A DNA stretch of 64,000 nucleotides from contig CM068828.1 of NCBI GenBank assembly GCA_028554795.2, positions 19,429,936 through 19,493,935 on the forward strand, in the 5' to 3' direction. Of this stretch, positions 6,901-62,935 are shown piece after piece; the stretch's first letter is position 1, and each line of letters begins with the position of its first letter. The notes under the pieces are model-generated. The model had not been told where the DNA came from. It saw only the letters and a program-made list of their open reading frames with translations, and searched no databases. The translations under genes were made by a program, and so were the position numbers. The stretch comes from Sinohyriopsis cumingii (Eukaryota > Mollusca > Bivalvia > Unionida > Unionidae).

Positions 6901-7977
6901 GTTAGCGGAGTCAAACAAGGCTGTGTCCTTGCACCGACGCTTTTTGCCATCTTCTTCTCCATGCTTCTCCAGTACGCATTCAAGGACTGCAGCGAGGGAG
7001 TGTACATCCATACCAGGGCTGACGGCAAGCTGTTCAACATCGCCCGTCTCCGTGCTAAGACTAAAGTCACAGAGGTACTCATCCGTGAATTGCTCTTTGC
7101 CGACGATGCAGCCTTGACATCACACACGGAAGATGGACTTCAGCAGCTGGTATGCTGCCTCTCCCATGCATGTAAGGAATTTGGACTGACCATCAGTTTG
7201 AAGAAAACAAATGTCATGGCACAGGACACAGACTCCCCTCCCTCTGTCTCCATCGATGGGTACAATTTGGAAGTTGTCGAGAACTTCACATACCTCGGGT
7301 CTAACATCTCCAGCTCACTCTCCATTGATTCTGAGGTGGGCGGCAGGATTGCCAAGGCAGCAGCAGTGATGGCCAGACTTAACCAGAGGGTCTGGAACAA
7401 CCCCAACCTCACAGAGAAGACCAAACTGCGTGTCTACCAAGCGTGCGTGCTCAGCTCACTTCTCTACAGCAGCGAAACATGGACCACCTATGCAAGACAC
7501 GAGAGGAAACTCAACAGCTTCCACCTGAGATGTCTGTGGCACATTCTGCACATCCAGTGGCAGGACAAAGTACCCAACACAGAGGTTCTAGAACGCGCCA
7601 ACATGAACAGCATGTTCTCCATACTCAGCGAGAGGCGCCTTCGCTGGCTCGGCCATGTCATGAGAATGGACCCAGGTCGCATTCCCAAGGACCTGTTATA
7701 TGGGGAGTTAGCAGAAGGTGCACGACCAACTGGACGACCACATCTGCGCTACAAAGATGTTTGCAAGAAGGATATGAAGACAGCAAACATCAATGTCAAT
7801 GACTGAGAGAGCTGTGCAAACAACCGTTCCAGCTGGCGTCTAGCTGTCAGGCAGGGAGTTCAAAACGCAGAGGAAAAGAGAAGAATAAAACAAGCTGAAA
7901 AGAGAGCTAAAAAGAAGGATAAGCAAAAGCGTACTTTGGAGTTATGCCATCGTCTCTCGTAGACGGACGGATGCCAA

Positions 7978-8043: not shown

Positions 8044-9440
8044 GCTGCAAAATGCTTGAACACATCATAATTAGCAACATGATGCATCATCTAGATCATT
8101 TCAACATCCTAACAGACTGCCAACATGGTTTCTGAGCCAGCTCATAACTCTTGTGGATGAGCTAACCAAATCCTCACGATCCTTGGCTTTAGTAAGGCTT
8201 TTGATCATGTCCCCCATGAAAGACTCCTTTGTAAGTTGGACCACTATGCATCATGAGTAAAACTCAGAAATGGATCAGAGATTTCCTGACAGATCACAGA
8301 GAGTTATAGTAGATGGAGTAACATTGGACCCAGCACTGGTTGTTAGCAGGGTAGTAGTACCTCAACGAAAGTGTTTTGGGTCTCATCCTCTTCCTGGTGT
8401 TCATCAATGATCTACCTGCGAGTGTCAAAACCAGCACAAGACTGTTTGCAGGTGACTATATTGTCTACCAGGAAATTAATGACCCCAAGAACTGTGAGAT
8501 CTACAAGAAGACCTGAACCAACTGGCCCTCTGGGAAAGAACTTGGAGTATGTCATCCAACACCAAAAAATGCAGCATCCTAAGAGTTTACAGGAAGAAAT
8601 CACTGATTTTGTCTAAATATAATCTTAAGGAGCATAATCTAGCTAATTAGCAGGTAACAAAATATCTTGGGGTGGAATTGTCCCGAGACCTCTCTTAGAA
8701 AAGGCACATAGACAAGATGGTGACAAATTTTAGGGTACAGTATAAACCTCAGTTTCCAGTGCCGCAACCTCCAAACCAGCAATGAAGAAGTAAAAAGTGA
8801 AGCATATTTTTCCCTTGTATGACCTGGCCTTGAGTACTGCTCAAACATGTGGAACATACATAATAAAGACCTAATAAATAAGATAGGTTGGTTCAGAGAA
8901 CTGCTAGATTCACCACAAACAGATATCATAATACTAGCAGCATCCGTGCAATGTTGAACCATCTCCAGTGGGAATCACATGAATCCAGGAAAACCAAGGC
9001 CCAGCTGACCATGTTGTAAAAGATAATGAACAACCTAGTGGACATACCTGCAGACAAATACTAGACCACAGCATATAACCAAAATAAGGCAAACCGCTAA
9101 AGTGCCAGTTAAAGTCAGCATCAAAAACTTGTTTAAAGTTCAGCTTCTTTCGGAGTTGGAACAAATTACCATCAATAATTGCAGAAGCTCCTGACTTGGT
9201 ATCTCACCAACTGGAGCTTTCCAAAATCACATTCTAATGAACTAATCAGAAACAAGTAAGACCTGGTGATTCTCAGAGCTATGCCATTGAGGTTCATTAT
9301 CTTATCGCTGCTATGGTAGCCAGATTGGTCTGAATATGAAGGGATGAAAATGTAGTCTGACACTCTTCTACCTAATTCTGCCTTTCCTACCATTACTCTT
9401 CTGCCTGTCCTATTGCTACTGTCTTTACTTTATCTTTGAC
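8042..9440 (+). pseudogene. Decayed CR1/jockey-like LINE reverse transcriptase, 3' piece
   Basis: Conceptual translation in shifting frames gives successive RT segments of a jockey/CR1-type element: C-K-M-L-E-H-I-I at 8050, D-C-Q-H-G-F near 8120, a K-A-F-D-H-V-P-H-E-like segment near 8190, an L-V-F-I-N-D-L-P-like segment near 8400, and a Y-L-G-V-E-L segment near 8665. Many stops and frameshifts show long decay. It continues the RT begun at 3878-3995. The 3' limit is approximate; no clear tail was found. Confidence 0.8.
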
Positions 9441-9581
9441 CACGCAACACTCGTTGCTTAATAGTCAAGTGCAACTGTGTCAACATATTTACTGATACAT
9501 ATCTCAAATGGGCAATAGTTATCTAATTTATAAAAGCAAGTATTTTTTTGCCTTGATTGAGACTACTGTGTAAATTATTAG
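9441..9581. other. AT-rich DNA, no gene seen
   Basis: Short spacer between the decayed LINE and the next minisatellite. Nothing recognisable. Confidence 0.4.
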
Positions 9582-9717
9582 TTATGTCTCAAATGAGCAA
9601 TAGTTATATCTCAAATGAGCAGTAGTTATATCTCAAATAAGCAATAGTTATGTCTCAAATAAACAATAGTTATGTCTCAAATGAGCAGTAGTTATATCTC
9701 AAATAAGCAGTAGTTAT
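9582..9717. repeat. 22-bp minisatellite, about 6 copies
   Basis: Units are built on ATGTCTCAAATGAGCAATAG with alternations ATGTCTC/ATATCTC and GAGC/AAGC. A single related unit lies just upstream near 9503, which suggests the array grew from a local seed. Confidence 0.9.
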
Positions 9718-10680
9718 TTAATTTCCAAAAACATTTTAAGATATCCCAGATATTGATCTCCTATTAAATTAATAACATGGAAAATATGGAGAAACATTAA
9801 CCCAAAATAGAAGAGACCCTCAAATTCTATTTACATGAGGAGTGGTATTTTTAAGAACCTAACTCCCTCGATAACTTGCGCCCTGATAACTCGCAAACCC
9901 ACTTATAATGCAGGGTCAGGCATGGATCCCATTTAAAAAAAAAAATTGATCCCTATTTGTTGAACTTGCAGAAAATCGCAATCAAAATTGGTAACAGAAA
10001 CTTTGATATTCCAGTCCTGTAGCAGAATTCTGTGGACTTTCGGGCGGTTTGTTTCGTGTGTGCCACTGCAAATGAAAATCAGAAGACTTTACTTCTCAAA
10101 GGAAATTTTGATCAATGAAAATGTCCCTTATGCCTAGTGGAGGCAGTACTTTAATAAATAAATACCAATGAAATATTTTTTTTTAATTGAAATTTGTGTT
10201 CTAGTTCTATCTTTTAGTTCCTTTTAAGTGTAATCACCATAAATGCAATGTGTCCTCTTGTAATTAAATGTAAAATGTGTCAATCTGCCACAACAGCTAT
10301 GTCCGTAAGTGTTTCTCTGAGAACCTAATTAAGTGCCAATCATGTTTCTTTTATTCCATCCCTTAATTTCATATTTTATTTGATTATTTTCTCAATCCAG
10401 GTAATAACACCATGGTCAGTATACAAGATAATGAAAACTAAAGCACCATAACAGGTGGTGGGTTCATATCATGTATCTCTCCCCCTCCCACATACCATCC
10501 ATATGCCATTAAAAGCCATGAATTCTGGGCATATCCATCCATTTTCCATAAAGAGTCAAGTAGAATTTCAGATTAAAAATGTATGATTTTGATCCCTTTG
10601 TTGAAATTTTGTTTTGAGTGACATGAATGACAAAACAATCTAGAAAAAAAAAACATTCCTATATTTATGCTTTCTTTATG
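9718..10680. other. AT-rich DNA with a terminal-repeat-like fragment
   Basis: No coding frame. At about 9863-9925 the sequence CTCCCTCGATAACTTGCGC and the following CTTATAATGCAGGGTCAGGC resemble segments at 39.4 kb and 63.8 kb, so this is probably a degraded piece of a pogo/Tigger-like or other MITE end. The rest is unremarkable. Confidence 0.45.
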
Positions 10681-11049
10681 TTAACCAGTCAGTCATCATC
10701 ATCACTATGCATACTAAATATGTACCACATAAAAGTCAATGTTAACCAGCCAGTCATCATCATCACTATGCATACTAAATATGTACCACATAAAAGTCAA
10801 TGTTAACCAGTCAGTCATCATCATCACTATGCATACTAAATATGTACCACATAAAAGTCAATGTTAACCAGCCAGTCATCATCATCACTATGCATACTAA
10901 ATATGTACCACATAAAAGTCAATGTTAACCAGCCAGTCATCATCATCACTATGCATACTAAATATGTACCACATAAAAGTCAATGTTAACCAGCCAGTCA
11001 TCATCAATCATCACTATGTCTACTGATATGTACCACATAAAAGTCAATG
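10681..11049. repeat. 61-bp minisatellite, 6 copies
   Basis: Units begin GTTAACCAGYCAGTCATCAT and end in ACCACATAAAAGTCAAT. Copies are almost identical (a single T/C change in CAGTCAG/CAGCCAG), except for the last, which has an ATCA insertion and other changes. This points to recent expansion. Confidence 0.95.
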
Positions 11050-11583
11050 TTTCTGCATTGTAGGTAAAGGATGATTAAATTTTCATTTCATAAAAATCAT
11101 CTATTTGTAAAATCATCATGGAGTGACTGGTTTTATAATATCTGAACATATAAAGACCATTACAGGCAGTTTGAACAACAGTAATACCTATTTTATCCTG
11201 GATGTAATATATGACAGGCACTAAAATTCCCTATTGGGCTCAAACCAACAAGTTGTTTTCCATAGACAACAATGTAAATGTTTGAGGAGACCCGCCCCCC
11301 CCCCCCCAAAAAAAAACAACTGTCACTAGAACCAGTATATAATGCATGTATTTCATGACAAATAATGCACATTAATGCATTTTTAATTCTAATCAAAGAA
11401 ATGTACTTTGTAACTTTTCTCCAAGATGGGTCTTTTATTAAGATAAATGTCCTATATTTTCAGCTGGGTAACCAGTCAAAGCTTCCTTAATCAACAGTTT
11501 CACAACAGGAAAACAGCAGGTACTTTTGGCCTGCTTGAGAAAAAAAAAAACATTAAATCATGCACATTCACAAACAGAATCTA
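11050..11583. other. AT-rich DNA with a C/A homopolymer tract
   Basis: No gene seen. A run of about 14 C followed by A occurs near 11295-11318. Confidence 0.4.
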
Positions 11584-11855
11584 TGTAGGATTTGAAAGGT
11601 CTGATAAATTTCCATGCTAATACTGTAGGATTTGAAAGGTCTGATAAATTTCCATGCAAATATTGCAGGATTTGAAAGGTCTGATGCTAATACTGTAGGA
11701 TTTGAAAGGTCTGATAAATTTCCATGCTAATACTGTAGGATTTGAAAGGTCTGATAAATTTCCATGCTAATACTGTAGGATTTGAAAGGTCTTAAATTTC
11801 CATGCTAATATTGCAGGATTTGAAAGGTCTGATAAATTTCCATGCTAATATTGCA
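11584..11855. repeat. 40-bp minisatellite, about 7 copies
   Basis: Unit core GGATTTGAAAGGTCTGATAA followed by ATTTCCATGCTAATA. One unit lacks about 12 bp (near 11680) and another a few bases; otherwise copies are nearly identical. Confidence 0.95.
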
Positions 11856-12099
11856 GCCAATGGCTTGATCATTAAGAATTATGTATGGCATCTAATGTTC
11901 TATGAAACTTGTACAATAGTCAGTTAATACTCAGTGGTAAAAGCCCAATATAAATAAATCATTACTAATTTAGAATATCAATGCATGAAACTTGGAAGAA
12001 AATTGGCATATAAGAATTTATCCAAGGGACTGATGTTCAACTGGCTGAAAAGAAGTTCCAGAAATTCAAGGTAAGACCATTTCTTCCACTGAACTGCAG

Positions 12100-12735
12100 A
12101 TTGCTGAAACCATCTTTGATCTTTTTCAGTGATAACTTGATTTTTGAAATAGCTGCTATGGTGGACATAGTGAATGTCCACTTGATGCTATTTTCATTTA
12201 TGATCAACAAGGCATCAAAAGAAGTCTTCTGGAAGTACACCCATGTTGATACGACTATCTGTTTTGGAGAAGCAATGATAACAAGAGTTTCAATATGGAT
12301 GCCATAGTGGTCATAACTGACATCAGATTGGAACAATTTTTATAAAGTACCAGCCAGGCATTATAAGAAGTCTTTTGGTGAAAGCATAATGTTGACATGA
12401 CCAGTCATCTTGGGGAAGTGATAATGAGATTTTCAAGGTGGCCATTGTGGCAGTGATATTAAAAGTTAGATCAGCACCAGTTTCCTTTATGAGCCACTAA
12501 GCATCGTAAGAAGACTTTCGGTATAAAAAAAAAACATTCTGATATGACCATTCATTCAGGAGAGTGATAAACCAAGTTTTCAAGATAGCCATTGTGGCAG
12601 ACAATATGGAATGTATGAATGGCACCATTGGAACCAACTAGATATTACAAGATGTTGTTTAGTATAAATCCCATGTTGATATGACCATATATGCAGCAGG
12701 TGTAGTGATAACAGCATTTTCAAAATGGCCACTGT
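12100..12735. repeat. Degenerate tandem repeat of about 160 bp, 4 units
   Basis: Each unit contains, in order, an A-AGAAGTCTT-like block, CATGTTGATATGACCAT-like sequence, GTGATAA, and TTTTCAAGATGGCCATTGTGG. Divergence is high. A further unit lies apart at about 13612-13735, so this is also an interspersed family. Short open frames here lack any coding character. Confidence 0.75.
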
Positions 12736-47077: not shown

Positions 47078-49925
47078 CAGGGTCTATATTGTCTAGGTTG
47101 ATTAGAATCTATATTGTCTATGTCAAATAGTGTCTATATGGTCTATGTCGATTAGAGTCTATATGGTCTATGTTGATTAGAGTCTATATGGTGTATGTCA
47201 AATAGAGTTTATATCTTCTATGTTGATTAGAGTCTATATGGTCTATGTCAATTAGAATCTAAATGGTCTATGTCAGAGTCTATATCATCTATTTTGATTG
47301 GAATCTATGTTGTCTACATCAAACAGAGTCTATATGGTCTATGTTGATTAGAGTCTATATGGTCTATGACATATATAGTCTATATGGTCCAAGTTGATTA
47401 GAGTCTATTTGGTCTATGTCAATTAGAGTGAATATGGTCCATGTTGATTAGAGTCTATATGGTCTATGTCAATTAGAGTCAATATGGTCCATGTTGATTA
47501 GAGTCTATATGGTCTATGTCAATTAGAGTCTAAATGGTCTATGTCAATTAGATTCACTATGATCCATGTTGATTAGAGTCACAGTGGTCTATGTCAGTTA
47601 GAGTCTATATGGTCTACATCAATTAGAGTCTATATGGTCTATGTCAATTTGAGTCTAAATGGTCTATGTCAAATAGAGTTTATATCATCTATATTGATTA
47701 GAGTCTATTTGATCTATGTCAATTAGAGTCAATATGGTCCATGTTGATTAGAGTCTATATGGTCTATGTTGATTAGAGTCAATATGGTCCATGTTGATTA
47801 GAGTTTATATGGTCTGTCAATTAGAGTCAATATGGTCCATGTTGATTAGAGTCTTCTATATGGTCTATGTTGATTAAAATCTGCATGATCTATGGCAGTT
47901 AGAGTCAATATGGTCCATATTGATTATAGTCTATATGGTCTATGTTAATTAGAGTCAAATGGTCCATGTTGATTAGTGTCTATATAGTCTATGTTGATTT
48001 CAGTCTATATGGTCTATGTTGATTATAATCTATATGGTCCATGACAATTATAGTTCATATGGCCAATGTTAATTAGAGTCTATATGGTCTATTTTGATTG
48101 GAGTCTATGTGGCCTCTGTTGATTAGAGTCTATATGGTCTATGTCAATTAGAGTCAATATAGTCCATGTTAATTAGAGTCTATATGGTCTATTTTGATTA
48201 GAGTCTATATGGTCTCTGTTGATTAGAGTCTATATGGTCTATGTCAATTAGAGTCAATATGGTCCAAGTTGATTAGAGTCTATATGGTCTATGTCAATTA
48301 GAGTCTAAATGGTCTATGTTGATTAGAGTCTATATGGTCTATGTTGATTAGAGTCTATATGGTCTATGTTGATTAGAGTCTAAATGGTCTATGTTGATTA
48401 GAGTCTATATGGTCTATGTTGATTAGAGTCTAAATGGTCTATGTTGATTAGAGTCTATATGGTCTATGTCAATTAGAGTCTAAATGGTCTATGTTGATTA
48501 GAGTCTATATGGTCTATGTTGATTAGAGTCTATATGGTCTATGTTGATTAGAGTCTAAATGGTCTATGTTGATTAGAGTCTATATGGTCTATGTCAAATA
48601 CAGTCGTTATGGTCTATGTCAATTAGAGTCTATATGGTCTATGTCAATTAGAGTCTAAATGATCCATGTTGATTAGTGTCTAAATGGTCTATGTTGATTA
48701 GAGTCTATATGATCCATGTTGATTAGAGTCTATATTATCTATGTTGATTAGAGTATATATGATCTACGTTGATTAGAGTCTATGTGGTCCATGTTGATTA
48801 CAGCCTATATGGCCTTTGTTGATTAGAGTCTACATGGTCTATGTTGGTTTGAGTCAATGTGGTCTATGTCAAATATAGTATTTATGGTTTTTGTTGATTA
48901 GAGTCTATATGGTCCATGTTGATTAGAGTCTATATGGTCTGTTTTGATTAGAGTCTATGTGGTCTATATGTCTATTAGAGTTTATGTGGTCTATGTTGAT
49001 TAGAGTCTATATGGTCTATGTTGATTAGAGTATATATGATCTACGTTGATTAGAGTCTATGTGGTCCATGTTGATTACAGCCTATATGGCCTTTGTTGAT
49101 TAGAGTCTATATGGTCTATGTTGGTTTGAGTCAATGTGGTCTATGTCAAATATAGTGTTTATGGTTTTTGTTGATTAAAGTCTATATGGTCCACGTTGAT
49201 TAGAGTCTATATGGTCTGTTTTGATTAGAGTCTATGTGGTCTATATGTCTATTAGAGTTTATATGGTCTATATTGTTTAGAGTCTATATGGTCTATGTTG
49301 ATCAGAATATGTATGTTCTATGTCAATTAGTCTATACAGTCTTTGTTGTTTATAGTCTATATGGTCTATGCAGATTCAAATCTATATGGTCTATGCTGAT
49401 CAGAGTCTATATGGTCTATGGTGATTCGAGTCTATATGGTCTATGTCTATTAGAGTCTAAATGGTTGTTGTTGTTGTTGTGGGGTTTAACGCCATTTTTC
49501 AGCACACAATAGGCTATGTATGGCGGCCAGTATCAATGGTGGAGGAAGAACCCAGGAAACCCCCGGGAAGAACCACCGACCCACAGTCTATATGGTATAT
49601 GGTGATTCGAGTCTATATGGTCTATGTCAAATATAGTCTATATGGTCTATGTTGATTAGAGTCTATATGGTCTATGTCTATTAGATTCTATATGGCCTAT
49701 GTCAAATAGAGTCTATATGGTCTATGCTGATTAGAGTCTATATGGTCTATGTCAAATAGAGTCTATATGTTCTATGTTGATTTGAGTCTATATCCTCTAT
49801 GTCAAATATAGTCTATATGGTCTACGTTGATTAGAGTCTAAATGGTCTATGTCAAATAGTCTATATAGTCTTTGTTTATGGTCTATCATGATTTGAGTAT
49901 TTATGGCTGATGTCAATTAGTCTAT
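47078..49925. repeat. 25-bp minisatellite, over 100 copies
   Basis: Units: TTGATTAGAGTCTATATGGT followed by CTATG, with variants GTCAATTAGAG, GTCAAATAGAG and GTCCATG. The segment at about 48749-48984 recurs with few changes at about 49026-49262, so a block of about eleven units was duplicated. A truncated SINE sits at 49464-49585. Confidence 0.97.
49464..49585 (-). mobile_element. 5'-truncated SINE, family B, inside the 25-bp array
   Basis: GTT repeats (the AAC tail in reverse), then GGGTTTAACGCCATTTTTCA and TATGGCGGCCAGTATCAATG; ends at ACCACCGACCCA, without the tRNA head. The insertion breaks the 25-bp repeat. Confidence 0.92.
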
Positions 49926-50069: not shown

Positions 50070-51490
50070 AAACTGCATGGATCCAGATCTGCTGATGCAT
50101 TATGTGAAGTTACATGGGTCAAGTGTCATTCTGACCTCATGTATCAGCTGGATGTCAGTACATTCAAGTGTCATACTGAACTCATGTAACAGCTGAATGC
50201 CAGTACCATTCAAGTGCCATACTGAGCACAAGTAAAAGCTGAATGCTAGTACCATTCAAGTATCATACTGAACTCATGTATCAGCTGGATGTCAGTACAT
50301 TCAAGAGCCATACTGAGCTCAAGTAACAGATAGATATCAGTACCATGCAAGTGTCATACTCAGCTCAAGTAACAGCTAAATGCCAGTACCATTCAAGTGT
50401 CATACTGAGCTCAAGTAACAGCTAAATGCCAGTACCATTCAAGTGTCATACTGAGCTCAAGTAACAGCTAAATGCCAGTACCATTCAAGTGCCCTATTGA
50501 GCCCTTGTAACAAATGAATGCCAGTACCATTCAAGTGTCATACTGAGCTCAAGTAACAGCTAAATGCTAGTACCATTCAAGTGCCCTATTGAGCCCTTAT
50601 AACAAATGAATGCCAGTACCATTCAAGTGTCATACTGAGCTCAAGTAACAGCTAAATGCCAGTACCATTCAAGTGCCCTACTGAGCTGTTGTAACAGATG
50701 AATGACAGTACCATTCCAGTATCATAATGAGCTCAAGTAACAGCTAAATGCCAGTACCATTCAAATGCCCTATTGAGCCCTTGTAACAAATGAATGCCAG
50801 TACCATTCAAGTGTCATACTGAGCTCAAGTAACAGCTAAATGCCAGTACCATTCAAGTGCCCTATTGAGTCCTTGTAACAAATGAATGCCAGTACCATTC
50901 AAGTGTCATACTGAGCTCAAGTAACAGCTAAATGCCAGTACCATTCAAGTGCCCTATTAAGCCGTTGTAACAGATGAATGCCAGTACCATTCAAGTGCCC
51001 TATTAAGCTGTTGTAACAGATGAATGCCAGTACCATTCCAGTATCATACTGAGCTCAAGTAACACTAAATGCCAGTACCATTCAAGTGCCCTATTAAGCC
51101 GTTGTAACAGATGAATGCCAGTACCATTCAAGTGCCCTATTAAGCTGTTGTAACAGATGAATGCCAGTACCATTCAAGTGCCCTATTAAGCTGTTGTAAC
51201 AGATGAATGCCAGTACCATTCAAGTGCCCTATTAAGCCGTTGTAACAGATGAATGCCAGTACCATTCCAGTATCATAATGAGCTCAAGTAACAGCTAAAT
51301 GCCAGTACCATTCAAGTGCCCTATTAAGCCGTTGTAACAGATGAATGCCAGTACCATTCAAGTGCCCTATTAAGCCATTGTAACAGATGAATGCCAGTAC
51401 CATTCAAGTGCCCTATTAAGCCGTTGTAACAGATGAATGCCAGTACCATTCCAGTATCATAATGAGCTCATGTAACAGCTGGATGGTAGT
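50070..51490. repeat. 46-bp minisatellite, about 31 copies, two unit types
   Basis: Type A: GTGTCATACTGAGCTCAAGT, AACAGCTAAATGCCAGTACC. Type B: GTGCCCTATTAAGCCGTTGT, AACAGATGAATGCCAGTACC. In the first half A and B alternate; in the second half runs of B occur with a periodic variant (CCAGTATCATAATGAGCTCA). A higher-order structure is evident. Confidence 0.97.
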
Positions 51491-51734
51491 ACCATAAGAT
51501 TAATAATTTACGGCTACTGTTTCAGCCCAATTCAAATATTTTATTCAGTAAATTTACAAGGTTTATATTCTTGGGGGGTACCAACTTTAGAGGTTTTAAC
51601 TTTCAGAGATGAATGAGAACCAGCTGAGGTGCTAATAATAGGGGCTAAATGATTAGTTGATATACTGATACTTTTTCCACAGTTAAACCCATACTGAAGA
51701 ATCAATGCAAAACAATAACTTGTACTATCCAATT
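51491..51734. other. Left flank of the large DNA transposon
   Basis: AT-rich DNA between the 46-bp array and the terminal repeat. A minus-strand open frame (51541-51732) has no recognised character. Confidence 0.4.
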
Positions 51735-51749
51735 CCCCAGCGAAAAAAA
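51735..51749 (+). repeat. Left terminal inverted repeat (candidate)
   Basis: CCCCAGCGAAAAAAA. Pairs with 62544-62558. Directly followed by GTTCTTAAGTTCATGAAC. Confidence 0.65.
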
Positions 51750-52110
51750 GTTCTTAAGTTCATGAACGCTTCATGAACTTCATGAACAGTTCATGAACTG
51801 GTTGTGAAAAGTCAAATTAATTCATGAACTGTTCATGAACATCAGTTCATGAAATTCAAGTTCTTGAACTTTTCTTTAGAGTTCATGAACTGTTCATGAA
51901 CATCAGTTCATGAAATTCAAGTTCTTTAACTTTTCCCCTGAGTTCATGAACTGTTCATGAACATCAGTTCATGAAATTCAAGTTCTTTAACTTTTCCTCC
52001 AAATTCACGAACTGTTCATGAAATTAAAGTTCTTGAACTTTTCCTTAGTTCATGAACTGTTCATGAATATCAGTTCATGAAATTTAAGTTCTTGAACTTA
52101 TAATAGTACA
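51750..52110. repeat. Left subterminal array of GTTCATGAAC palindromes
   Basis: About eight exact copies of the 10-bp perfect palindrome GTTCATGAAC plus many one-mismatch copies, arranged in units of about 62 bp (two palindromes, ATCAGTTCATGAAATTCAAG, then a GTTCTTGAACTTTTC box, itself a variant palindrome). Likely binding sites for a protein of the element; compare with the right array. Confidence 0.9.
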
Positions 52111-52949
52111 TGAACTGTTAAGTACTGAACCAAATAGGCAAACAAATTACAATTTTAGAAACTTGTTATGCATACTTGTAGTTCATCAACTGTCCTTGAA
52201 GCAATCCAGTTTATGAAGAATTAAATTTGAGAATTTTGATTGCATTTTCTTAAAAAAGGCGATGAACAAAATAGTAACTAATTTTTTAAGTTCCAAGAAT
52301 TGAAGATATCTGCAAAATGTGATTTAATCTGTTGAAATTAAATGTGATTGAAGATTAGCAGTACATGCTTACATACATCAACCTATTTCACAACAAATTA
52401 TGTCCAAATGAACACACTGGAAGTGCATTGTACCATATTCTTAAATACATTATGTATTATTCTAAATATATTCATGTTTCAGTACATGGCCTAATTATTC
52501 TGTATATACTTTTTAGACTTGTTATCAAGGAACAGCCCAGCCAAGTTTTGGATTTGTGTGCATCTCATTTTCATCTTTACCTAAGTGAAATTTTGTTACT
52601 TTTGGGCAAAAATTGTGATAAAGACCTTTAATTTCCTTCCAAAAGTAAAAAAAACTTCAATTAGGATTGTTGTAAAGGTGGGGAAAAGGTGCGTAAAATT
52701 CCATGTCTGTGCTGTTCCTCGATGGATGGTGTATTGTTTGTATTGTAGTCAAACATGCTAAAGAGGAACCAAAATAATCTATTCAATAAGAGTAAGGCTA
52801 TGGATTCTAAGTTTGATGTGAGTAAATAATTGTAAATTATCATTTTACATAAAAGTAACCAGTACAACATGTTTAAAGTGTTGACATTTGCATCCCATTC
52901 AGTCCCCATAAAGTACAAGTATATTCAGTCAACATTACTGATGCTAGAA
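52111..52949. other. Non-coding segment between left subterminal array and transposase stop
   Basis: AT-rich DNA; a short plus-strand frame (52365-52631) is not credible. Serves as 3' flank of the minus-strand transposase gene. Confidence 0.45.
52627..52632 (-). promoter_or_regulatory. Possible poly(A) signal of the transposase gene
   Basis: ATTAAA on the minus strand, about 320 bp after the stop codon. I found no canonical AATAAA closer on that strand. Confidence 0.35.
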
Positions 52950-55900
52950 TCATTTGAAAATGGCATGTCCATGACAGTTTGGCATCACTGCAACATATGC
53001 TTCTGCTTCAGGTGATGAAGAGGGACTGACATTTATGTAAACTAAAGTGTCGATCAACTCTTCAGCAGGTACCACATCTATTGTCAACATAGCTTTAACT
53101 GCTAACAGGTGTTTTCCAGCTGGTAGTTGTGAAAGTTTTGTTTTTGCAGCATCATATTTTATCAAAACTGCATGTACAGTCTTATTTGATGTATTGTATA
53201 CAAAATATTTAACACGTCCAATTTTGCTTTGGTTATATAGCACAACATTACAGACTCTTCTCTGCATTCTCAAGTACTGTGAAGAGCAGAATTGTTTGCT
53301 ACCTATGCTAATTCTGTCAACCTTTCTCAAATCCATATGACAGTCTAAATTTAATGTAGCCAAAACTTCATCTGTCACTTCACCGTCTCTAAAATATTTC
53401 ACCTTCCCTGATATATCACAAGTTGCAGCTTCAGCAGTCTTTTTCCAGAGTGTTGTTGATGCTGAATAAACACCCTTTCTGCACAAACTTGACACTGCTT
53501 GTTTGTACTTCATTACTTGCTTCGTAACATTACCCGTTCCATGTACAGACTGTAGCAACATTGCATTATTATCCTCAAATGGGAAACAGCTCCATGCCCA
53601 CATTGGTCCCCACAGCTTTACATACCAAACCAAATGAATACAAGCATTATGGACATTGAGACCACTTGAGCCTTGACCATATAAATCAGCAAAGGAAGAG
53701 TAAAACTTGTCAAAAAGAACAGCTGCTCTGTCCAATTGTCCTGGCAATATATTGTCTCCAAGAAGAATATACACAGCTTCTGATAGATATGCAAAATGTT
53801 TCAGATAAACTTCTGGTAGTATTCCATCTAAACATGGGAGTGCATAAAACAACAACCATGCTTGCAATTCTGTAGCTTTTAGGTTTGCATAATGTTTTTC
53901 CAAATCACGGGGTAATCTCTCAATACTGATTGGAGGTTGAATATTCTGAAGTCTTTTGGAAACAGTTTTAATATGTTTTCCAATAAAATAATTCTTACCA
54001 CTTTGTGTTGGTGAGAACCATTTGCTCAATAATGTATTTGTTATACCTAATAAAATCCCATGCATGTAATCTGGTACTACACCTTTAACCAGGTCAAAGG
54101 ACTGAAGAAATGCAAGACCAGACAAGCCCTTAAAACCTTTAATCCGTTTTGTCGTTGTTGCATTTTGCATGTTTTGCAAAACTTCCTGATTATTTCGTAG
54201 TGGATACTGTGTTTCAACAGTCCTGTGAGGATAACATCGCGATGTTCCTTTTCCTTGTTTTACAACAATACCAGGCTCTTCACAGGTAATGCATGCCTCC
54301 GTCCCATTAAAATATGTCATATTTAGAATACCTGCTTTAGCTGGTAGATCAAATACACCACAAATAACAGCAACTTTTGCAACAATTAATTTGTTGTCCC
54401 AATTAACTTCAACCCCTTCATTGTACAAACTATTCATTTCTTCACTGAAACTTGCCATATACTGTTTAAAAGGGGGTTTTCCCTTTCCTTGCCATATCCC
54501 AACCAATAACATGTTATCCCTCGAAAATCTTGCTTTGGGACTCAACTCATTTATAGCCATAAAAAGTGGCCACAATTCTATTTTCGAGGATGAATACAGA
54601 TTTACTCCATCTGTATTGATGATGGCACTTAAGCTGTATGGATGATGTAGAAAACCATCTTCATTCAGCATATCTCTGTACGCAAACCCATCAGTTATGT
54701 CTGTCAAAATTCTAGAGCTTTTTCTGTCCTCAAGTGCTGCCTTACAATTTTCAATTTCTTTCGAAATACCTGGAAAAGACAAGAAATAGAATTACTTCAG
54801 TTGAAGATTATATTTACAGGTAATTGTTCTTCAACAAAATAGAGCTACATTTAATGTATATGCCTTATTTGAACATAAGATTTGCTTAACTAATTTTGTC
54901 GGTATTAACCTTATTAAGTGCAAACAATTCATGATATTGCCCTATCAAACAAGAAATGTGCAATGCTCCTCAATAAATTTTCCCTTAGAACTATGTAAAA
55001 GTAATCACAGTTCTTCAGTTAAGGATTCTAAATATACAAGCATAAACTTATTTATACCTGGTGTCTCAAATAGATGTTTCAACTGTTTTTTGGTATCAGC
55101 CAGTATAAAACTTTTCCTCGGTTGTCGATCCTTTTTTTGTTGATCCAACAATCTTCCTTTGTAACGAAAGCCTCCACAATTTTCCAAGCTACATCTAAAT
55201 TCATCCAAGTTGTTTGGAAATACCTCGTCACATGTGTCACAATAGTGTATTTCTTTAATTGGGTGGATATCAACTAAAGAATATATATAATCCAAGTCTA
55301 GGACATCAACACATTTGGAGTTAGGGAACACACTTTTCATAGTTTGAAGAATGTCTTTACAGGCACTGGTTGTTAAATTATGTCTTTGAAAGAGGGAAAG
55401 AATTTTTAAGGCTTGCAGTTCATTTTCTGAAAGAGGCTGTGGTTGCATCTTTTTCACTTCATCACTGCTGTCTCTTCCTAATGAATTTGCATCTTCTTTA
55501 CTGCTGGTCTCCACATCAGAAAAATTATCAGAAGATTCAACATTTGAAGAGGTTTCCGATATTATAGAGTCATTTGAGTCTGATAGTACAGATGTGACCT
55601 CGCTTTCATTTGAATTGCATGTTGATAAAGAGCTACATGTATCATTATCTGTGTAGCATACATCGGCAGCTACATCATCTGGGATTATTGAGGATCCAGC
55701 TGTAGGATAGGTTAGAATTCTTTCTGAAGATGATGCATTCTTATCATCATCTGAAAAATAAGACAACTTTAAGCAATGTTGTTTACACTTGGTATGATTT
55801 CAGCATTAGGATTAAAATAAAGTAACATTTTGTGAGCTAAAGTCTGACTTTCGGAATACAACTAGCCATTTTCCTTAGTGAGAAAAGTTTGCAAGTTATA

Positions 55901-57073
55901 ATAAATTTAAATATGAATGTTAGGGAGGGTAAACAATGAACAGTATAATAATATACACTAAGTCTGTGATACTGTTTTCATTTCATAAAATGATAATGTT
56001 TTTATTGTTTCATTCAGCAATTTATTCTGATAACCACTGGTGGCTGTTGTAAAAATAAAATTTTCCTAAAAATAAACTACTTAATTGAGGCAGACATAAA
56101 TAACTTTTAGGTGAAATGTGAACTTGTTTTAAACAAGATCACAAATATGGCAATATTCATCAGTTAATGATTATGAAGTTGATCTATAAAAAACAATCAT
56201 AGTTTTTGCTTATGTTACCATATACTTTACTTCTGGCTAGTGCCGCTTCAAAGTAGAATTTATGATTTAGCATTATTTCATGACTAAAATCATGGGTATA
56301 TGCTTTTTACAACACTCTGTGCACTTACAATCTAATGGCATATTATCAGATTCATTGCAGCATGTAGCCATATCCTTTGACTGACTTGTCTTCCATCGAT
56401 AAGCTGTACGCACAGGAACTTTGACTGACTTGTCAAAAACATGCAGTTTGTAGATTCGTTTGACTGGAGCTATATAAAAAATGAGAAATACTAAGACACT
56501 AACTTAACAAAACAAAGCAAGTGATGGCAAAATGAAATGGAAAGGCAGTGATAATACACAAGTCTAATCAAAGCTTTTACATGAATCATCATTTTATTTA
56601 GTAATAGTTTCATTTCTTGTGATCATGACCTAAAGTGGAATTTTGAATAAGGATGCAATACATTCAATGTATTTTTTATAGTTCTCTGTGGTGTAGTGAT
56701 TAAAAACTGTCTGAAGAGTGACTGACAAGTCTCAATGCTGTGATTGTGGGTTTAGTCCTCAGATTTTGTAAGAATGTTTGCTTGTTACTTGTGCCACAAA
56801 TGGAAGCTAGTGTTAAGTTGTCTGAGGTCTACCTCCATCATTACAACTATTTGCCATATATAGCATATATTATGTGCTAAGACATAATTTTTTCCCCAAA
56901 AATTTTATATTTTTAAATATGTAAAAACATTTCTACTCACATAAACTGTGTACTCCACTTAAATGATGTAAGATGTTATGTTTACTGCCCACTATCCTTG
57001 TGCAAATCAAACACTGATACTTCTTTCGACCGTTTACAACTATTTCACTGTAACTGGTTTGTTTGGTCGCCAT
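52950..57073 (-). CDS. Tnp2/CACTA-type transposase with N-terminal C2H2 zinc finger, 4 exons
   Basis: Exons (minus): 57073-56941, 56469-56329, 55750-55058 and 54769-52950. All junctions are GT-AG, all introns are in phase 1, and together they give 928 codons plus stop. Start: ATG in CAGTATGG context. Residues about 19-42 form a C2H2 finger (C21, C24, H37, H42). About 92-196 is an acidic, Ser-rich linker. C262/C265/C278/C283 form a zinc ribbon-like site. From about 370 the Tnp2-family core appears: T-D-G-V (D376), R-D-N-M-L-L-V-G-I-W-Q-G, C-I-T-C (482/485), P-D-Y-M-H-G (D556), K-A-T-E (E623), and the C-terminal N-V-H...W-G-P-M-W-A-W-S-C-F-P-F-E-D-N-N block (about 694-727) shared with DUF4218-type sequences. 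D376, D556 and E623 are my candidates for the DDE catalytic triad. It would cut and join the element's ends in the nucleus. The gene is divergent from the BEN gene. No stops or frameshifts were seen, so it may be functional. Gene prediction is by eye. Confidence 0.9.
56688..56830 (+). mobile_element. Possible tRNA-derived SINE in transposase intron 1
   Basis: Contains GTGGTGTAGTGATTAAAAAC (A-box-like), GTGGGTTTAGTCCTC (B-box-like) about 60 bp later, and GAAGCTAGTGTTAAG. It lies between exons 1 and 2 in the opposite orientation to the gene. Degraded; the family is not the same as families A or B. Confidence 0.5.
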
Positions 57074-57919
57074 ACTGGATTGAACTGAAATAGAAATATG
57101 AAATTACTGCACCTAGTTCAAATTTTACCGGAATAGAGGTATTATGTTACAAAGTTATGCATAAAATTCCTTTTTCTACGAAGTTACAATGATATTTTAC
57201 AGCGAATTGTTCAGTATCAAACAAAATCACTGAAATTTTAACTAACCAAATAAAATAACAATACTTTGAGAACTTGCTGACTTTGGTGGTGCACCGTGTA
57301 TTTTTGTATAAAACTCAAAACAATAAATAAACTTGCCTCGAATATACAGTTCAGTCAAATATGGCGGCTCAAATTTCCCGCAATGCATCACTTCCAGTGA
57401 CCTTGGTCTTGAATATATATATATATATATAACCATTACAGATAAGAGTTACCGTGCTGAACTGGTTTAGAAGAAGAGTTATTTATTTTTAAACATATTA
57501 ACATACCCCGATTGTATCTGAACCTTCAAAGTATCCTTCCACTGGTTGGTGAAGTATAAATGTCGCAGAACATTGACATTTGTTTTCGTAAGGCTGCCAT
57601 TTTTTCTGGTACCGCAGACTCGGGTCCAAGCAGACATCTATCAGTTACCATCCTCCGTCGCAGAAAGCGCGCGAAGATTGTAAGCAAGCGATTGGCTAGT
57701 TGATATAATATTTTATTTCGTGCAAAATGTCGATGCTGTTTTCTTTAAGATTAAACGATGTTTGTAGATAAATATATTTCTTTGTTTTGGAACTTCATAA
57801 ATAACTACTATATATTGTTTACTAATAAAAGAAACAAAAACGGACAATTGTTGAGCATGCGCATTGCCGATAAACCGCACGTGTGAAACAAAAACCCACA
57901 CACACAACAAAAAAAAAAG
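57074..57919. promoter_or_regulatory. Shared divergent promoter region of the transposase and BEN genes
   Basis: Head-to-head intergenic region of about 850 bp. It has two GC-richer clusters in otherwise AT-rich DNA: about 57353-57400 (AAATATGGCGGC, a YY1-like motif; TTTCCCGC, an E2F-like motif; CACTTCCAG, an ETS-like motif) and about 57590-57690 (GCTGCCATTTT, then a CGCAGAAAGCGCGCG stretch). No TATA box at a convincing distance. The factor names are motif resemblance only. A short TA run lies at 57413-57431. Untranslated exons may lie here. Confidence 0.6.
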
Positions 57920-60900
57920 ATGGCAAGCAGTCGCAGCATCCTTGTTTACTGGACACAAGAAAACAACTGGTCTGTCTTGAAAGAAACCTGCATCAAGGAA
58001 GGTTCTTTAACTGTAGGAAGTACGGTGCAAGCATATTATCTGAGAAAAGTTTATCCGGCCATTTTAATTGCAATTTCGGGTAAGTTTGCATGTTTTCATT
58101 TAACAAAATCGAGGTCAATCTATCTTTTCGAACTTAAAAGTTAGCATTCCATATACAGAAGAGTTTTTAAAAAATATTTGTCTACGGCAAGCCTATATGA
58201 ACATCGATTAACGATAGAAAAGTAGCCTACAAGTTTGATGTCACATTTCACCATCGTCCACTTTTAAAAAAAAATACAATCATAAATGTTGCTATCGGTA
58301 TAGATATAAGAGATTTTGATCGCAATATATGAAACCTGATAAGCTAGTGAAATTGTACATGTGTATAGATCAGAAGCGGAATTTGGTTTATTTTCATTAA
58401 CTATTGGGTGTAAATGTTCGAACTGGAAGAGTGGTTAGCTTTAATACGGTAGCCGTGCATTGGATAATTTTCATACTTTTGAGGTCTAAAGAAGCGAAAC
58501 GGTAATAACGTGTTCAGTCTGTTAATGGACACATTTTTTAAAATCGAATTTCAGAGAACAAGTCATCTATAGAGAGGATTGAAGTGCATTTTAAAAAATT
58601 CCTCCTTGGAGTCAATGCACATGTAGATGAAGAAGAAGAGAGGATAACGAAAATCAAGAATGAATTCAGTGAGTATGTGTGTGTGTGTATACATATGCAG
58701 CCAATATAGATTCAGTTAGATTGCAATAATTCAAACTTGCATTACAGCACCAAACTTGGCTTATTTTAAGGTAGGGATGTGTAAATGATAACTTAATTGA
58801 ACATATATATTTACAAGCATACTTAAAGTTTTAATAACACTAAATTTGTATTAAATAGTGATTTAGTCCATGTAGGTACTATTTTTTCCAATATATCAAC
58901 TTTTTAGCACATTCTTTAAAATATTTCTCATGCAGTCCCATTCATGACTGACACACCAGTTGCTTCAACCAAGAAGGTTACAGCTACTCCAAAGACTGAG
59001 GAGAAATTGGGTGGATTGGTACCAGAAGGTATGACATTTTCAGAAAACTATACAGACTGTATAGACTTTAACTACAAATAATGAAAACTAATTTATATTA
59101 AACAAATCTTGATGAAAATAATAATGTCTTGCCAAAAGACAGTTGTTGACAATCTTATTTTAAACATTTTTATGACTGAAAAAATGAATATATGGATTAA
59201 AGTTGAACCTAAAATTAATAACTTAAACATTTATTTTACCAACAATATTTGCAAACACTAATGAGTTTAATACTTAATGACTGGGAAAATTCCCTATTGT
59301 CCTGCAAGAGTAGAACAGAAACAAAAGATCCATCAAGCAGTATAAGCTACCACCTTGGCTTGTTGTGTAACTGAAAATGAATATGCATATTAAAGCTTAA
59401 TTAAGAATGTTATTGTTTGATTAAATGCTGCCTTTCATTCAACCCACAGCAAATTCTTTAAAATATTTCTTATACAGTCCCATCAGTGACTGACAAACCA
59501 CACCTTTCAACCCCAAAGAAGAGTGCTGCAGTCCCAGAGAAGATGGCCACGCCAAAGAAGATAGCAACAAAGAAAACGGCCACTCCAAATATGATCACTC
59601 CAGAAAAGACGACTCCTAACAAGAAGTTACCCAAAATGGATGGATTGGTACCACAAAGTATGAAATGCTCCCATGTCTTATATTCTGTCTTTAATTATTT
59701 TTAAAGGACACCTACAAACTTAATATCCTTAAATTGCTAAATTTAATTGGATTCTGCCCACTGGTTTCAAATGAGTCAAGTTTAAATAGCTTTTCCCAAA
59801 CTGCTATTAGTCCATTTAATTATTTTCAGTCTGTGAGCAAAGTCTGAATTTTTCCAAAACTGCAAATATCATTTCATTTCTGTTTGTCAGGAATGTTATT
59901 TGGGTCACTCTGCTTTAAATTTATAAGTTTCATAATATTTTGATATCCAAGATGTTACCAGGTGATTGAATATTTTACATTGATTCTATTTGTAAAATGA
60001 ATAAGACTAAAGCTTGACATGTATATATGTATTGGGTTATTTAATGTACATCAGATTTGAGATGTTGATTTATAGCTTATCAAATATTAATTGCTTAACA
60101 GAAATGTACTTAAGAACTAGACTTACAATCTGAGCATGTTAAAAAATAATAGAAATGTAATAATGAGATTTACTTATGACGTTAAGTATATGAATGGGCC
60201 ATTAAAACAGCAATCTGTTCAACCAATATTGGTTGGCCATTAAATGTCCTGGTCATAATAGTTACATGTAAAACAAAACTTAAAATGAGTAGCTTTCTTA
60301 AGGGATGTTTCACATCTGATTACATAGTGATGACAGTTCCAATAAACTCCTGTATTTAACACGCACTTTTTAAATACACCTTCTCTTGGTTCAGTCAGTT
60401 TTGGGAAAAGTCGGCCACTATCGGAATTCATGTAAGAACCCTGCATTTTCTATAAATGTTCGTTTCCATAACTTGTATTCTTTTTTGATGCATGTAAATA
60501 TTCATCTAATTTATCTTCCTTTAACTTGCAGTAAAGGGATCAAATGAGGGAATAGACTACCTCAGAAAAGAAAGTGAGAGCAACAACTCCAGGTAAAATT
60601 GTATAGATATTCCATCAACTGAATATTTTTGCAAGGTTGACCTTTAGGGATAATAACATTGAAAGCATGTTACACTTACTAGCATGAAACTTGACAGTTA
60701 TATTGCCCCAGGGAGAAGCCCTATTGTTTTGGGGGTCAATGGTCAAGCTTTGCTATAACCTCATGTGGACATGGGCATTCTGTGCAATAAGCCAGGATAT
60801 ATAACACCCAGGGTCATGAAACTTCATAGTAAATTGCCCTTGGTGAGAGGAAGAACCCCTTTATGCTTGACACCATGAAGGAAAACATTGGTACACAGTG

Positions 60901-61813
60901 ACAACATGCACATAATTTTCACAGTATTCTGGTCTTTATTTTCACAAGTTACGGAATGGGTGGGGTGCTACCTTTCATCTTTACAATGAGATTTATAAAA
61001 ACTTCTATGCACAAAAAGCTAACTGGCAAAATGTCATTTAATTCTCCATTAGGTAATTTTTTTTATTCCCCCCCCCACACACACACATTGGTACTCCTGG
61101 TGTATTTTTATAATCATATCAGATTTTTATTAGGATAAGCTAGTTGCTACCCAGATTCGGCTGAAATGGAAATAGGGAGTTTAATAGGCTCTAGCTGTAT
61201 TAGAAATCTGTATTTTGCATTATCAAAACTATGCTTTGTGAAATCTGCAACATTTAACTGTTTACACACGATGACATCTAGTAAATATTAAGACATTAAC
61301 AAAATAGTATCGTTGTTGTTTATCGTCTTGCATCTAATTTTATACAGGGATAGACGCATTAAAAAACTTGAAGACAACGTTAAAGCACTCAAGGAAGACA
61401 ATAAGTATTTAAGACGGAAATTACGAAAACTTGAAGAGAGAAATTCTCTGCAGGATGTCAGTGGTGAATCGAGTGTTCAAGAAGTAAAACAGCCTGCAGG
61501 AGAGGGAGAATGCTGCAGTGTTTCTGCTCCAAAGGAAGACACTCTTGATGACATTAAAAAAAGTGTTCAACACATAAAATGTGATAAAGACATTTTTAAA
61601 GTGTTATGTCTGAAGATTTTCTCAAAGGATGAATTAAAGAATTCTTCAAGAACAGGGAAAAAAACCATTAAATGTGTGGGCACTGTAAGACCACCACTTG
61701 ATATTCAAAAACTGAGCAAGCTGGAATTGTTAGTTTTACAGTGTACCACAATGGACAAGGACTTGTTTTACAAGAAACTTGAAAACTTACAAAAAATCCT
61801 GAGGAGAAGTTAA
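57920..61813 (+). CDS. BEN-domain protein with Tudor-like N-terminus and coiled coil, 6 exons
   Basis: Exons: 57920-58079, 58555-58668, 58936-59028, 59478-59657, 60532-60592 and 61348-61813. All junctions are GT-AG, and they join in frame to 357 codons plus stop. Start ATG in AAGATGG context. Residues about 1-55 resemble the small beta-barrel found at the start of many invertebrate BEN proteins (I-L-V-Y-W near 7, V-Y-P-A-I-L-I-A-I near 45). Exons 3 and 4 are a duplicated pair encoding T-P-K-K-type basic, proline-rich repeats. Residues 203-240 form a charged coiled coil (I-K-K-L-E-D-N-V-K-A-L). About 281-336 is the BEN domain (F-S-K-D-E-L-K-N-S-S near 294, R-P-P-L-D near 317). BEN domains bind DNA, often at palindromes, so a role on the GTTCATGAAC arrays is a reasonable inference. 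It could instead be a captured host gene with its own targets. Two AATAAA signals follow the stop. Confidence 0.87.
58936..59657 (+). repeat. Duplicated exon (exons 3 and 4 of the BEN gene)
   Basis: Both exons start TCCCAT, then a few bases later TGACTGACA, and end with GGATTGGTACCA followed by GTATGA donors. The 20-odd bases before each (TTCTTTAAAATATTTCT...CAG) also match, so the copy included the acceptor. Exon lengths 93 and 180 are multiples of three and all junctions are phase 1, so the duplication kept the frame. Confidence 0.85.
60640..60875. repeat. Interspersed repeat in BEN gene intron 5
   Basis: Contains GCATGAAACTTGACAGTTAT, GGGAGAAGCCCTATTGTTTT, GGGGTCAATGGTCAAG and a second GTCATGAAACTT...TTGCCCTTGGTGAGAGGAAG copy. 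This wording is typical of a widespread mollusc interspersed repeat (assignment from general knowledge). It is a nested insertion, so the element has been resident long enough to be hit. Confidence 0.6.
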
Positions 61814-61890
61814 CAGGTTCTTTTATATATATATATACATCGGTCACCCTAATTGTGATCAATATCATTATGAAATGATAAAACATTTTT

Positions 61891-61911
61891 AATAAATTCT
61901 GTTCTAATAAA
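61891..61911 (+). promoter_or_regulatory. Poly(A) signals of the BEN gene
   Basis: AATAAA at 61891-61896 and again at 61906-61911, about 80-95 bp after the stop codon. Confidence 0.75.
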
Positions 61912-62249
61912 TTTGATATTTGTCAATGATTTTTAAATAGTGCTTCAATTTTAAACAGGATTGGCATAAATGTATTTTGACATTTGTGTGTTTCTAGAAA
62001 ACTAATCTGCAGTGCAACATTTAATCTAAAATTGTATACACCCATCTGCACACAAGGACTATTACTAAAGATGTTAGTAGTCAAAGGGAAAGTTATTTTC
62101 ACAGGAAAACTATTATTTGCTTTTTTGCTTTTTCAAAAGCTTTCCCGTGTATCTTTTCATAATCAGTATCATCAATCTGAGCTTCTATTTCACAGAAAGA
62201 GATGTTATTGAATTTCATGAAATTTACTTCCATAAACTATAAAGAACGG
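61912..62249. other. Non-coding segment between BEN gene and right subterminal array
   Basis: AT-rich DNA; a short frame at 61984-62211 has no recognisable character. Confidence 0.45.
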
Positions 62250-62545
62250 AGTTCATGAACAATAACATTAGTTCATGAACTAGATTTATGTTCTGTTCAT
62301 GAACAGTTCTTGATTTGTTCATGAATAGTTCATGAACTAGTTCATGAACCAGTTCATGAATAGTTCATGAACCAGTTCATGAATAGTTCATGAACAGTTC
62401 ATGAACTAGTTCATGAACAGTTCTTAATTTGTTCATGAATAGTTCATGAACTGAAGATTCATGAAGTGGCCATTTTCTGTTCAGGTACTAATTCATGAAC
62501 CAGTTCATGAACTAGTTCAAGAACAATTCATGAACAGTTCATGAT
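62250..62545. repeat. Right subterminal array of GTTCATGAAC palindromes
   Basis: About eleven exact copies of GTTCATGAAC, plus many GTTCATGAAT-type variants, mostly spaced 11-13 bp centre to centre in the middle of the array. The same core as at the left end but in a different and denser arrangement, so the two ends share the motif and not merely a duplicated block. Confidence 0.92.
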
Positions 62546-62558
62546 TTTTTCACAGGGG
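62544..62558 (-). repeat. Right terminal inverted repeat (candidate)
   Basis: On the minus strand CCCCTGTGAAAAAAT, pairing with 51735-51749 at 12 of the first 14 positions. Confidence 0.65.
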
Positions 62559-62935
62559 ATGTTACTTTAACCTTCAGCAGTTGTGAATAATTACTATTGC
62601 CGTTTTATTCTTTAAATTGAGAATTCATCTGTGACAACTGTAGCAGGCATATGCTTTTTTTTGCCAACAAGAAAGAAAACCACTCTACATCTACAAATTA
62701 ACAGAAGGCGACTAACTCAAATGATTCAAAATCTGCCCCACCCCCTTGCCAATTCCATGCTATGAATTGTATCCTGACAGCATGTCCAGCCACTGAAAAA
62801 ATACATACACATAAAAAAGACATTCCAGATTTGCTCTCCATGCATAACTTAAGTACTTTACTAATTATTTAATAACTACCTTTACTCAATGTTTTTCTGT
62901 TGCTTCACAACATGCATCTAAATGAACTCAGTTTT
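62559..62935. other. Right flank of the transposon, no gene seen
   Basis: AT-rich DNA without a recognised repeat. Confidence 0.4.

Follow-up and report, generated by a model that had tools for sequence, protein, structure and literature searches.

In the 64,000-nucleotide stretch of the genome of the bivalve Sinohyriopsis cumingii that was analysed here (contig CM068828.1; hereafter the window), positions 51735..62558 are occupied by a 10,824-bp element that, judged from its sequence, is a recently mobile DNA transposon in an animal genome, carrying its own transposase gene and a gene for a BEN-domain protein. It is one of eight full-length copies, and we think it likely that these represent a recently active, two-gene, cut-and-paste transposon of the CACTA-Mirage-Chapaev-Transib (CMCT) group, in which the BEN protein would serve the transposase as its end-binding partner. 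BEN domains have been described chiefly in host proteins that act in chromatin and transcription, and also in some viruses. A previous, sequence-only reading had proposed an intact 10.8-kb transposon at this place, which is borne out by the eight full-length copies, their fixed ends, and both genes being open in the window copy.

Copies, ends and target sites

A search of the animal's own 2.9-Gb genome with the 201-bp left end (40 of 124 candidates scored) gave eight full-length matches of 98-100% identity among the 130 matches listed, and all eight are full elements of 10,785-10,824 bp; the several copies with the same ends that the sequence-only reading had asked for do exist. With the 301-bp right end (40 of 428 candidates scored), nine near-complete matches (92-100%) were obtained, namely these eight copies and a locus at C7:128.8 Mb (C7d), a truncated member of the same family that holds the BEN half only. 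The flanks of the eight copies show no mutual similarity over about 0.6 kb, and pairwise substitutions among the copies themselves amount to 0-0.73%. Three copies on C6 lie inside 140 kb and differ by 0-1 substitution over 10,808 bp, two of them being identical over this length, and each has its own exact 2-bp duplication (AC, TA and AT). Because these near-identical copies have different flanks, very recent local jumps on C6 are suggested. Both genes are open, with all splice sites kept, in seven of the eight copies; in the copy on C7 the transposase is disrupted and the BEN gene is open, as it is in all eight. Four residues of its transposase set the window copy apart from the six others that are intact; recent activity is supported for the family, and the window copy itself may or may not be competent. 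Of the recent or current activity that had been read into the intactness of the element, it is thus the part concerning the family, with its closely similar C6 copies at different sites, that stands.

The left terminus, CCCCAGCGAAAAAAA (51735..51749, + strand), is identical in seven of the eight copies, with one substitution in the C7 copy, and the right terminus, TTTTTTCACAGGGG (62545..62558, - strand; CCCCTGTGAAAAAA when read inward), is identical in all eight. Matched inverted ends had been claimed, and an inverted repeat is indeed present, but it is short (about 14 bp) and imperfect. The termini read CCCC..GGGG in all eight copies, without the CAC(TA) start of canonical CACTA/EnSpm elements. 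The claim of matched subterminal palindrome clusters holds: 36 of the 37 TTCATGAA palindromes in the window fall inside the element, and of the exact 10-bp GTTCATGAAC there are 8 occurrences at the left end, 11 at the right and none in the interior. The left array spans 51758..52190 (8 exact sites, 22 with at most one mismatch) and the right array 62251..62535 (11 exact, 18 with at most one mismatch); neither these arrays nor the element as a whole is assigned a strand. When sites with at most one mismatch are counted, neighbours lie 11-12 bp apart, about one helical turn, in 12 of 17 spacings on the right and in 6 of 21 on the left. Subterminal arrays at both ends are shared with canonical CACTA/EnSpm elements, and in the present element the palindromes that form them have CATG at their core.

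An exact 2-bp target duplication flanks six of the eight copies (CA, AA, AC, TA, AT and TT); the chance of such dinucleotide identity is about 4e-6, for a length of 2 bp that was chosen after looking. A 3-bp target duplication was found in none of the eight. Two base pairs lie within the 2-5 bp range of the CMCT group, and depart from the 3 bp of canonical CACTA/EnSpm elements. The duplication of the window copy is imperfect, with TT on the left (51733..51734) and AT on the right (62559..62560), both without strand. When joined flanks were compared with the own genome (40 of 567 candidates scored), contiguous matches spanning the junction were found for three insertions, each within repeats. 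All four paralogues of the C7 site were read, and in place of the doubled TT of the filled site they have one dinucleotide only, TT in three of them and CT in the fourth; at the C3 site the five paralogues read, out of six, show a pattern consistent with a TC duplication with one base changed. At the site of the window copy (five of 12 paralogues read), both dinucleotides are absent in all five, and the window copy has four extra flanking bases relative to its paralogues, which is ambiguous and could reflect either a duplication that has mutated, together with an indel, or a footprint of older date. As such, of the empty sites that the sequence-only reading had asked for, paralogous ones were found for the C7 and C3 copies, and the window's own is ambiguous.

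The transposase and the BEN protein

The two genes are divergently oriented, the transposase gene lying on the - strand in four exons (928 codons plus stop) and the BEN gene on the + strand in six (357 codons plus stop); all introns are GT/AG, and the frames close at the two lengths given in the sequence-only reading. Exon 1 of the transposase (56941..57073) holds the start codon and a C2H2-like finger, with a Pfam E-value of only 0.39 for a finger that is common to homologues, and exon 2 (56329..56469) holds a motif, SPVKR..VPVRT, that is likewise common to them. Several annotated homologues repeat this arrangement of an N-terminal finger exon followed by a small exon 2 (SPVKR..VPxRT). Exon 3 (55058..55750) is followed by the large exon 4 (52950..54769), which contains the Tnp2 core, candidate D/D/E residues, C(2)C and H(4)H, and the stop codon; it matches PF02992 (Tnp2) with E 1.2e-11 and 44.7 bits, against a cutoff of 28.6. 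A search with residues 330-928 retrieved 162 proteins at E <= 0.001 among 6,080 candidates, of which 120 were listed, the best coming from the clam Mya arenaria (80%) and others being labelled scallop, oyster, mussel, abalone, acorn worm and icefish. The viral and genome contig collections yielded no relative of the transposase.

Across 14 aligned sequences, that of the window and those of 13 hits, D61, D148, C167/C170, H381/H386 and E406 are invariant, in the residue numbering of open reading frame 52950-54791; the assignment of D, D and E as catalytic is our own, and these are to be taken as candidate residues. C(2)C and H(3-4)H between the second D and the last E define the CMCT motif (PMC12730594; of this and the other sources cited, part of the text was available, and statements resting on them extend to that part), and the window transposase has C(2)C and H(4)H before its last E. 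Judged by these transposase motifs, the element belongs with the CMCT group and is not a canonical CACTA element, its ends and target duplication being different. Of the Tnp2/CACTA identity proposed before, the Tnp2-type transposase (PF02992) is retained, and the attribution to canonical CACTA fails on the CCCC..GGGG ends and the 2-bp duplication. A 36-row tree, made of relatives from the transposase protein search and from the own genome and including no reference CMCT transposases, assigns the window transposase and that of a decayed element at C6:121.97 Mb (read through across its broken pieces) to different clades, both well supported, the second of which includes scallop and oyster sequences; the protein P0016 and the locus C10d are placed without confidence.

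The BEN gene begins with the start codon in exon 1 (57920..58079), continues through exons 2 (58555..58668), 3 (58936..59028), 4 (59478..59657) and 5 (60532..60592), and ends with exon 6 (61348..61813), which encodes a predicted long helix, then the BEN domain, and the stop. The 846 bp separating the two start codons (57074..57919, no strand) may serve as a bidirectional promoter. For the full 357-residue protein, no homologue was found at E 0.001 among 3,188 candidates, and sequence searches of the PDB gave nothing significant, the sole match of one search being the BEN domain of Bsg25A at E 0.69. A profile of exon 6 with its diverged genomic relatives retrieved three proteins at E <= 0.1 among 700 candidates; P0121, P0122 and P0123 score 30.5, 36.2 and 42.8 on the BEN profile, where the cutoff is 23.2. 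AlphaFold gave a poor model from the single BEN sequence, and from a four-sequence alignment a model with a mean predicted local distance difference test score (pLDDT) of 76 and block means of 85-93 over residues 81-154, except for 67 at 101-110. The 15 best Foldseek matches to this fold in the PDB are all BEN domains (Insensitive, Bsg25A, NACC1, BANP and BEND6), with probabilities of 0.85-1.00. By its relatives and its predicted fold, the second gene encodes a BEN protein, as the sequence-only reading had it; that the assignment is an artefact of a weak profile is rejected on the scores of P0121-P0123 and on the Foldseek matches.

Between diverged loci, the BEN domain exon is under purifying selection. 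The ratio of nonsynonymous to synonymous differences per site (pN/pS) between the window's exon 6 and the loci C3d, C4d and C6d1 is 0.22 (Fisher 2e-8), 0.27 (9e-10) and 0.40 (3e-6), respectively; for exon 4 against C3d it is 0.67, which is not significant, and for the transposase against the relative C203 it is 0.52 (P 0.009). Stops are present among the counted codons of C4d (1), C6d1 (5) and C203 (5), so that these values mix constrained and neutral time, and within the eight copies there are too few changes for a ratio of substitution rates (dN/dS). C203 itself, 91-96% identical, keeps every alignable splice site, its first exons not being alignable, and in the more diverged C3d the acceptors of BEN exons 3 and 5 are other than AG. 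The C3d locus is a relative of the BEN half, with an exon 6 whose counted codons include no stop and whose pN/pS is the lowest (0.22); it has a frame-shifting alignment gap, no TTCATGAA cluster and no transposase in range, and is possibly a relic or a host-retained BEN gene.

Linkage of the two genes and the palindromes in relatives

Searches of the own genome gave 25 matches to BEN exon 6 (59 of 59 candidates scored), 145 to P0121 (150 of 305 scored) and 79 to the Tnp2 protein (72 of 216 scored). Ten further BEN loci were fetched, one of them, C7d, being the truncated copy mentioned above, and at least three exact TTCATGAA palindromes lie beside the BEN exon in six of the ten (C203, C4d, C7d, C12a, C12b and C10d). 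The BEN exons of C4d, C12a, C12b and C10d are just 31-46% identical to that of the window, yet adjoin such clusters. C203 has the divergent BEN/Tnp2 layout of the window, with a transposase about 95% identical, and at C10d a very divergent Tnp2 (about 28%) and the BEN exon lie on the same strand with TTCATGAA downstream, which is either a different gene arrangement or a rearranged copy. The decayed element at C6:121.97 Mb, chosen because a BEN match lay 8 kb away, is about 11.6 kb long and has a Tnp2 that is mostly 41-52% identical and a BEN of 45%, in divergent layout; its ends are CCCCTGCGAAA on the left and a decayed CACAGG on the right, with three exact TTCATGAA at each end. Two more loci were chosen for Tnp2 only, no BEN match being known at either. 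One of these, C6:128.19 Mb, has a transposase that is 47-59% identical by segment; its BEN match is weak, with 36-37% identity to P0123 (E 6e-5, searching a 20-kb database), and did not appear with the window's BEN as query. Its layout is divergent, and five TTCATGAA lie 3' of the BEN match. The divergent orientation of BEN and Tnp2 is therefore kept in three relatives: C203, C6:121.97 Mb and C6:128.19 Mb.

On C1, the only chromosome covered by the array list, triple TTCATGAA arrays occur at 1,638 places, against 756 for a reversed control, in a list that includes other tandem repeats. Within the part that this list covers there are six BEN matches, each with an array on its 3' side at a distance of 305-479 bp; a further two fall outside it. 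In another assembly, P0016 (Tnp2) and P0121 (BEN) each report three contigs, the longest of 3,092,853 bp, which suggests that they share contigs. A decayed BEN family, for example at C1:28234830, C1:30176602 and C1:134354468, accounts for many matches with four TGA and one TAG at about 37% identity, and adjoins TTCATGAA arrays where this can be checked on C1. At C12a (oriented 8900-12200) lies an element of about 3.2 kb with a left end CCCCTGTGA, a right end CACAGGG and TTCATGAA clusters at both ends; it keeps a decayed BEN exon and has no transposase match, and from its sequence we take it to be a BEN-bearing non-autonomous derivative.

The BEN protein as a putative end-binding partner

How would such an element work? 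In the explanation that we consider likely, the Tnp2 protein would cut and join at the CCCCWGYGA ends, and the BEN protein, perhaps oligomerised via its long helix, would bind the GTTCATGAAC palindromes at both ends, contacting the CATG core plausibly as human NACC1 does, and would pair the ends for the transposase; it may also regulate the central divergent promoter. The BEN protein would then fill the job of TnpA in maize En/Spm, the proteins being unrelated. We infer this end-binding role because of the precedents of NACC1, BANP and TNPA, together with the predicted long helix and the CATG-core arrays. The palindromes selected by the NACC1 BEN domain have CATG as their core (PMC7764960, PMC11472053), full-length BANP is a coiled-coil oligomer whose BEN domains bind paired sites (PMC11472053), and maize En/Spm requires both TNPD, its Tnp2 protein, and TNPA, which binds the subterminal repeats, the second proteins of different CACTA elements having little mutual similarity (PMC2613891). 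For the broader proposal, that an animal CACTA-like clade has long used a BEN protein as TnpA-equivalent, with BEN and GTTCATGAAC-type arrays co-inherited across transposases that are about 41-52% identical, our confidence inclines only slightly to the positive side.

With CACTA elements of the En/Spm type (maize En/Spm, soybean Tgmt*), the present element has in common a Tnp2-type transposase, short and imperfect terminal repeats (about 13 bp), subterminal arrays that are asymmetric, a second protein that binds DNA (as predicted for the window's BEN) and defective relatives (PMC2613891). Unlike them, it has CCCC..GGGG termini, a 2-bp rather than a 3-bp duplication, and 10-bp palindromes as its repeats, and its second protein is a BEN protein from a separate, divergent gene, whereas the TnpA exons are shared with the tnpD transcript (PMC2613891). 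The 5'-CA..TG-3' ends said to hold in most cases for the CMCT group are absent, and the TGT..ACA and CATCA..TGATG ends of PlavakaA and PlavakaB (PMC12730594) are not matched either. The 2-bp duplication and the animal host are shared with ENS1_Cis of Ciona and the miniature inverted-repeat transposable elements CMC-NA, which by contrast keep CAC..GTG ends, and for which the available text describes no BEN gene (PMC6004678). Fungal TET/JBP transposons also have a chromatin-type gene added beside the transposase, but there it is a methylcytosine enzyme, and here a DNA-binding domain with candidate end sites (PMC12730594). NACC1/NAC1 shares the BEN fold and binds CATG-core palindromes (PMC7764960, PMC11472053); it differs in being a host transcription factor with a BTB domain, and is 16-19% identical in the Foldseek alignments. 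A literature search, with Repbase and most subscription papers outside its scope, found no transposon encoding a BEN protein by title or abstract start, and nothing close among animal CACTA elements.

Several observations weigh against this explanation. The BEN exon of the window scores under the Pfam cutoff (18.9 versus 23.2 bits; whole protein 17.0), and no Foldseek match reaches E 0.001, the best being 0.038. Only the right end shows a clear regularity in its 11-12 bp spacing, and two of the eight copies are without a perfect target duplication. Four of the ten BEN loci (C3d, C6d1, C6d2 and C6d3) lack three TTCATGAA beside the BEN exon, and a transposase match lies in range at only three (C203, C10d and C6d1), that at C6d1 being weak and outside the element's right end. 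Five of the six BEN matches on C1 share stop counts and spacing and resemble copies of one decayed family, so that the C1 evidence amounts to about two independent cases, not six. The second Tnp2 locus fetched, C13:36.66 Mb, is a fragment in which neither BEN nor TTCATGAA was found, and the distant open Tnp2 genes at C2:170.49, C15:119.14, C55:5.99, C59:2.34 and C151:4.24 Mb have no BEN match nearby in either BEN search (59 of 59 and 150 of 305 candidates scored). Against the transposon, the sequence-only reading had set the possibility of genes and arrays being found unlinked; they recur together in diverged relatives, but many decayed BEN or Tnp2 relatives in the genome are without the other gene.

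Could the transposon be real, and its BEN gene nonetheless a captured host gene or regulator, such as a repressor or anti-silencing factor, that is dispensable for end binding? Roles in transcription and chromatin are known for BEN proteins (PMC11472053), the TET/JBP genes of fungal transposons are thought to aid escape from silencing (PMC12730594), and distant Tnp2 genes in this genome are without a BEN match among the matches listed. However, the divergent layout is kept in C203, C6:121.97 Mb and C6:128.19 Mb, over transposases from about 95% down to 41-52% identical, exon 6 is under purifying selection, and BEN exons adjoin TTCATGAA clusters where no transposase was found (C4d, C7d, C12a and C12b), which is unexpected for mere cargo; we regard this capture as rather unlikely. 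A chance neighbourhood of two separate elements or genes, by nested or composite insertion, might be read from those BEN-bearing fragments that have no transposase in range, but all eight full copies hold both genes inside the same ends at unrelated sites, which contradicts it for the window's family, and with the pair also kept in three relatives it is scarcely credible.

Segmental or assembly duplication, instead of transposition, would account for near-identical copies such as the three within 140 kb on C6, two of them identical over 10,808 bp, and the assembly does have likely duplicated contigs, with C391 and C637 matching like C10:29.08 Mb. Yet the flanks of about 0.6 kb are mutually dissimilar, which contradicts segmental duplication, each C6 copy has its own exact 2-bp duplication, and empty sites exist for the C7 copy, leaving duplication very improbable. 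A last alternative concerns classification only and is compatible with a two-gene transposon whose BEN protein binds its ends: the element may not be a variant of CACTA/EnSpm and may instead fall in a named sister superfamily, for instance Mirage, or in another CMCT lineage. The 2-bp duplications and the termini without a CA start point in this direction, the best family match, PF02992 Tnp2, points away from it, and we hold it to be possible though doubtful.

If the BEN protein does bind the ends, Tnp2 transposases would have acquired unrelated proteins as their second, end-binding partner in plants and in animals. Long co-inheritance, as in the broader proposal above, would make the BEN protein and its arrays a natural protein-site pair for recognising transposon ends, from which host BEN transcription factors or their sites might also have come. 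The decayed relatives leave the genome sprinkled with possible BEN-site arrays. With both genes open in seven of eight copies, a two-protein requirement is directly testable in an animal system.

Outside the transposon, the window holds on its + strand (4795-7806) an open frame of 1003 amino acids with an endonuclease domain (E 1.4e-11) and RVT_1 (E 3.6e-33), a non-LTR (long terminal repeat) retrotransposon whose coding frame is open. In the genome at large, contigs C391 and C637 and the locus C10:29.08 Mb show identical match patterns to the left end and the transposase, which suggests that they are duplicated haplotype contigs in the assembly. Positions 185-51495 of the window are very rich in minisatellites (108 tandem-repeat rows, some overlapping), among them one array of 25-bp units that occupies about 2.8 kb (47082-49852) and another of 46-bp units (50119-51495), which ends 240 bp before the transposon.

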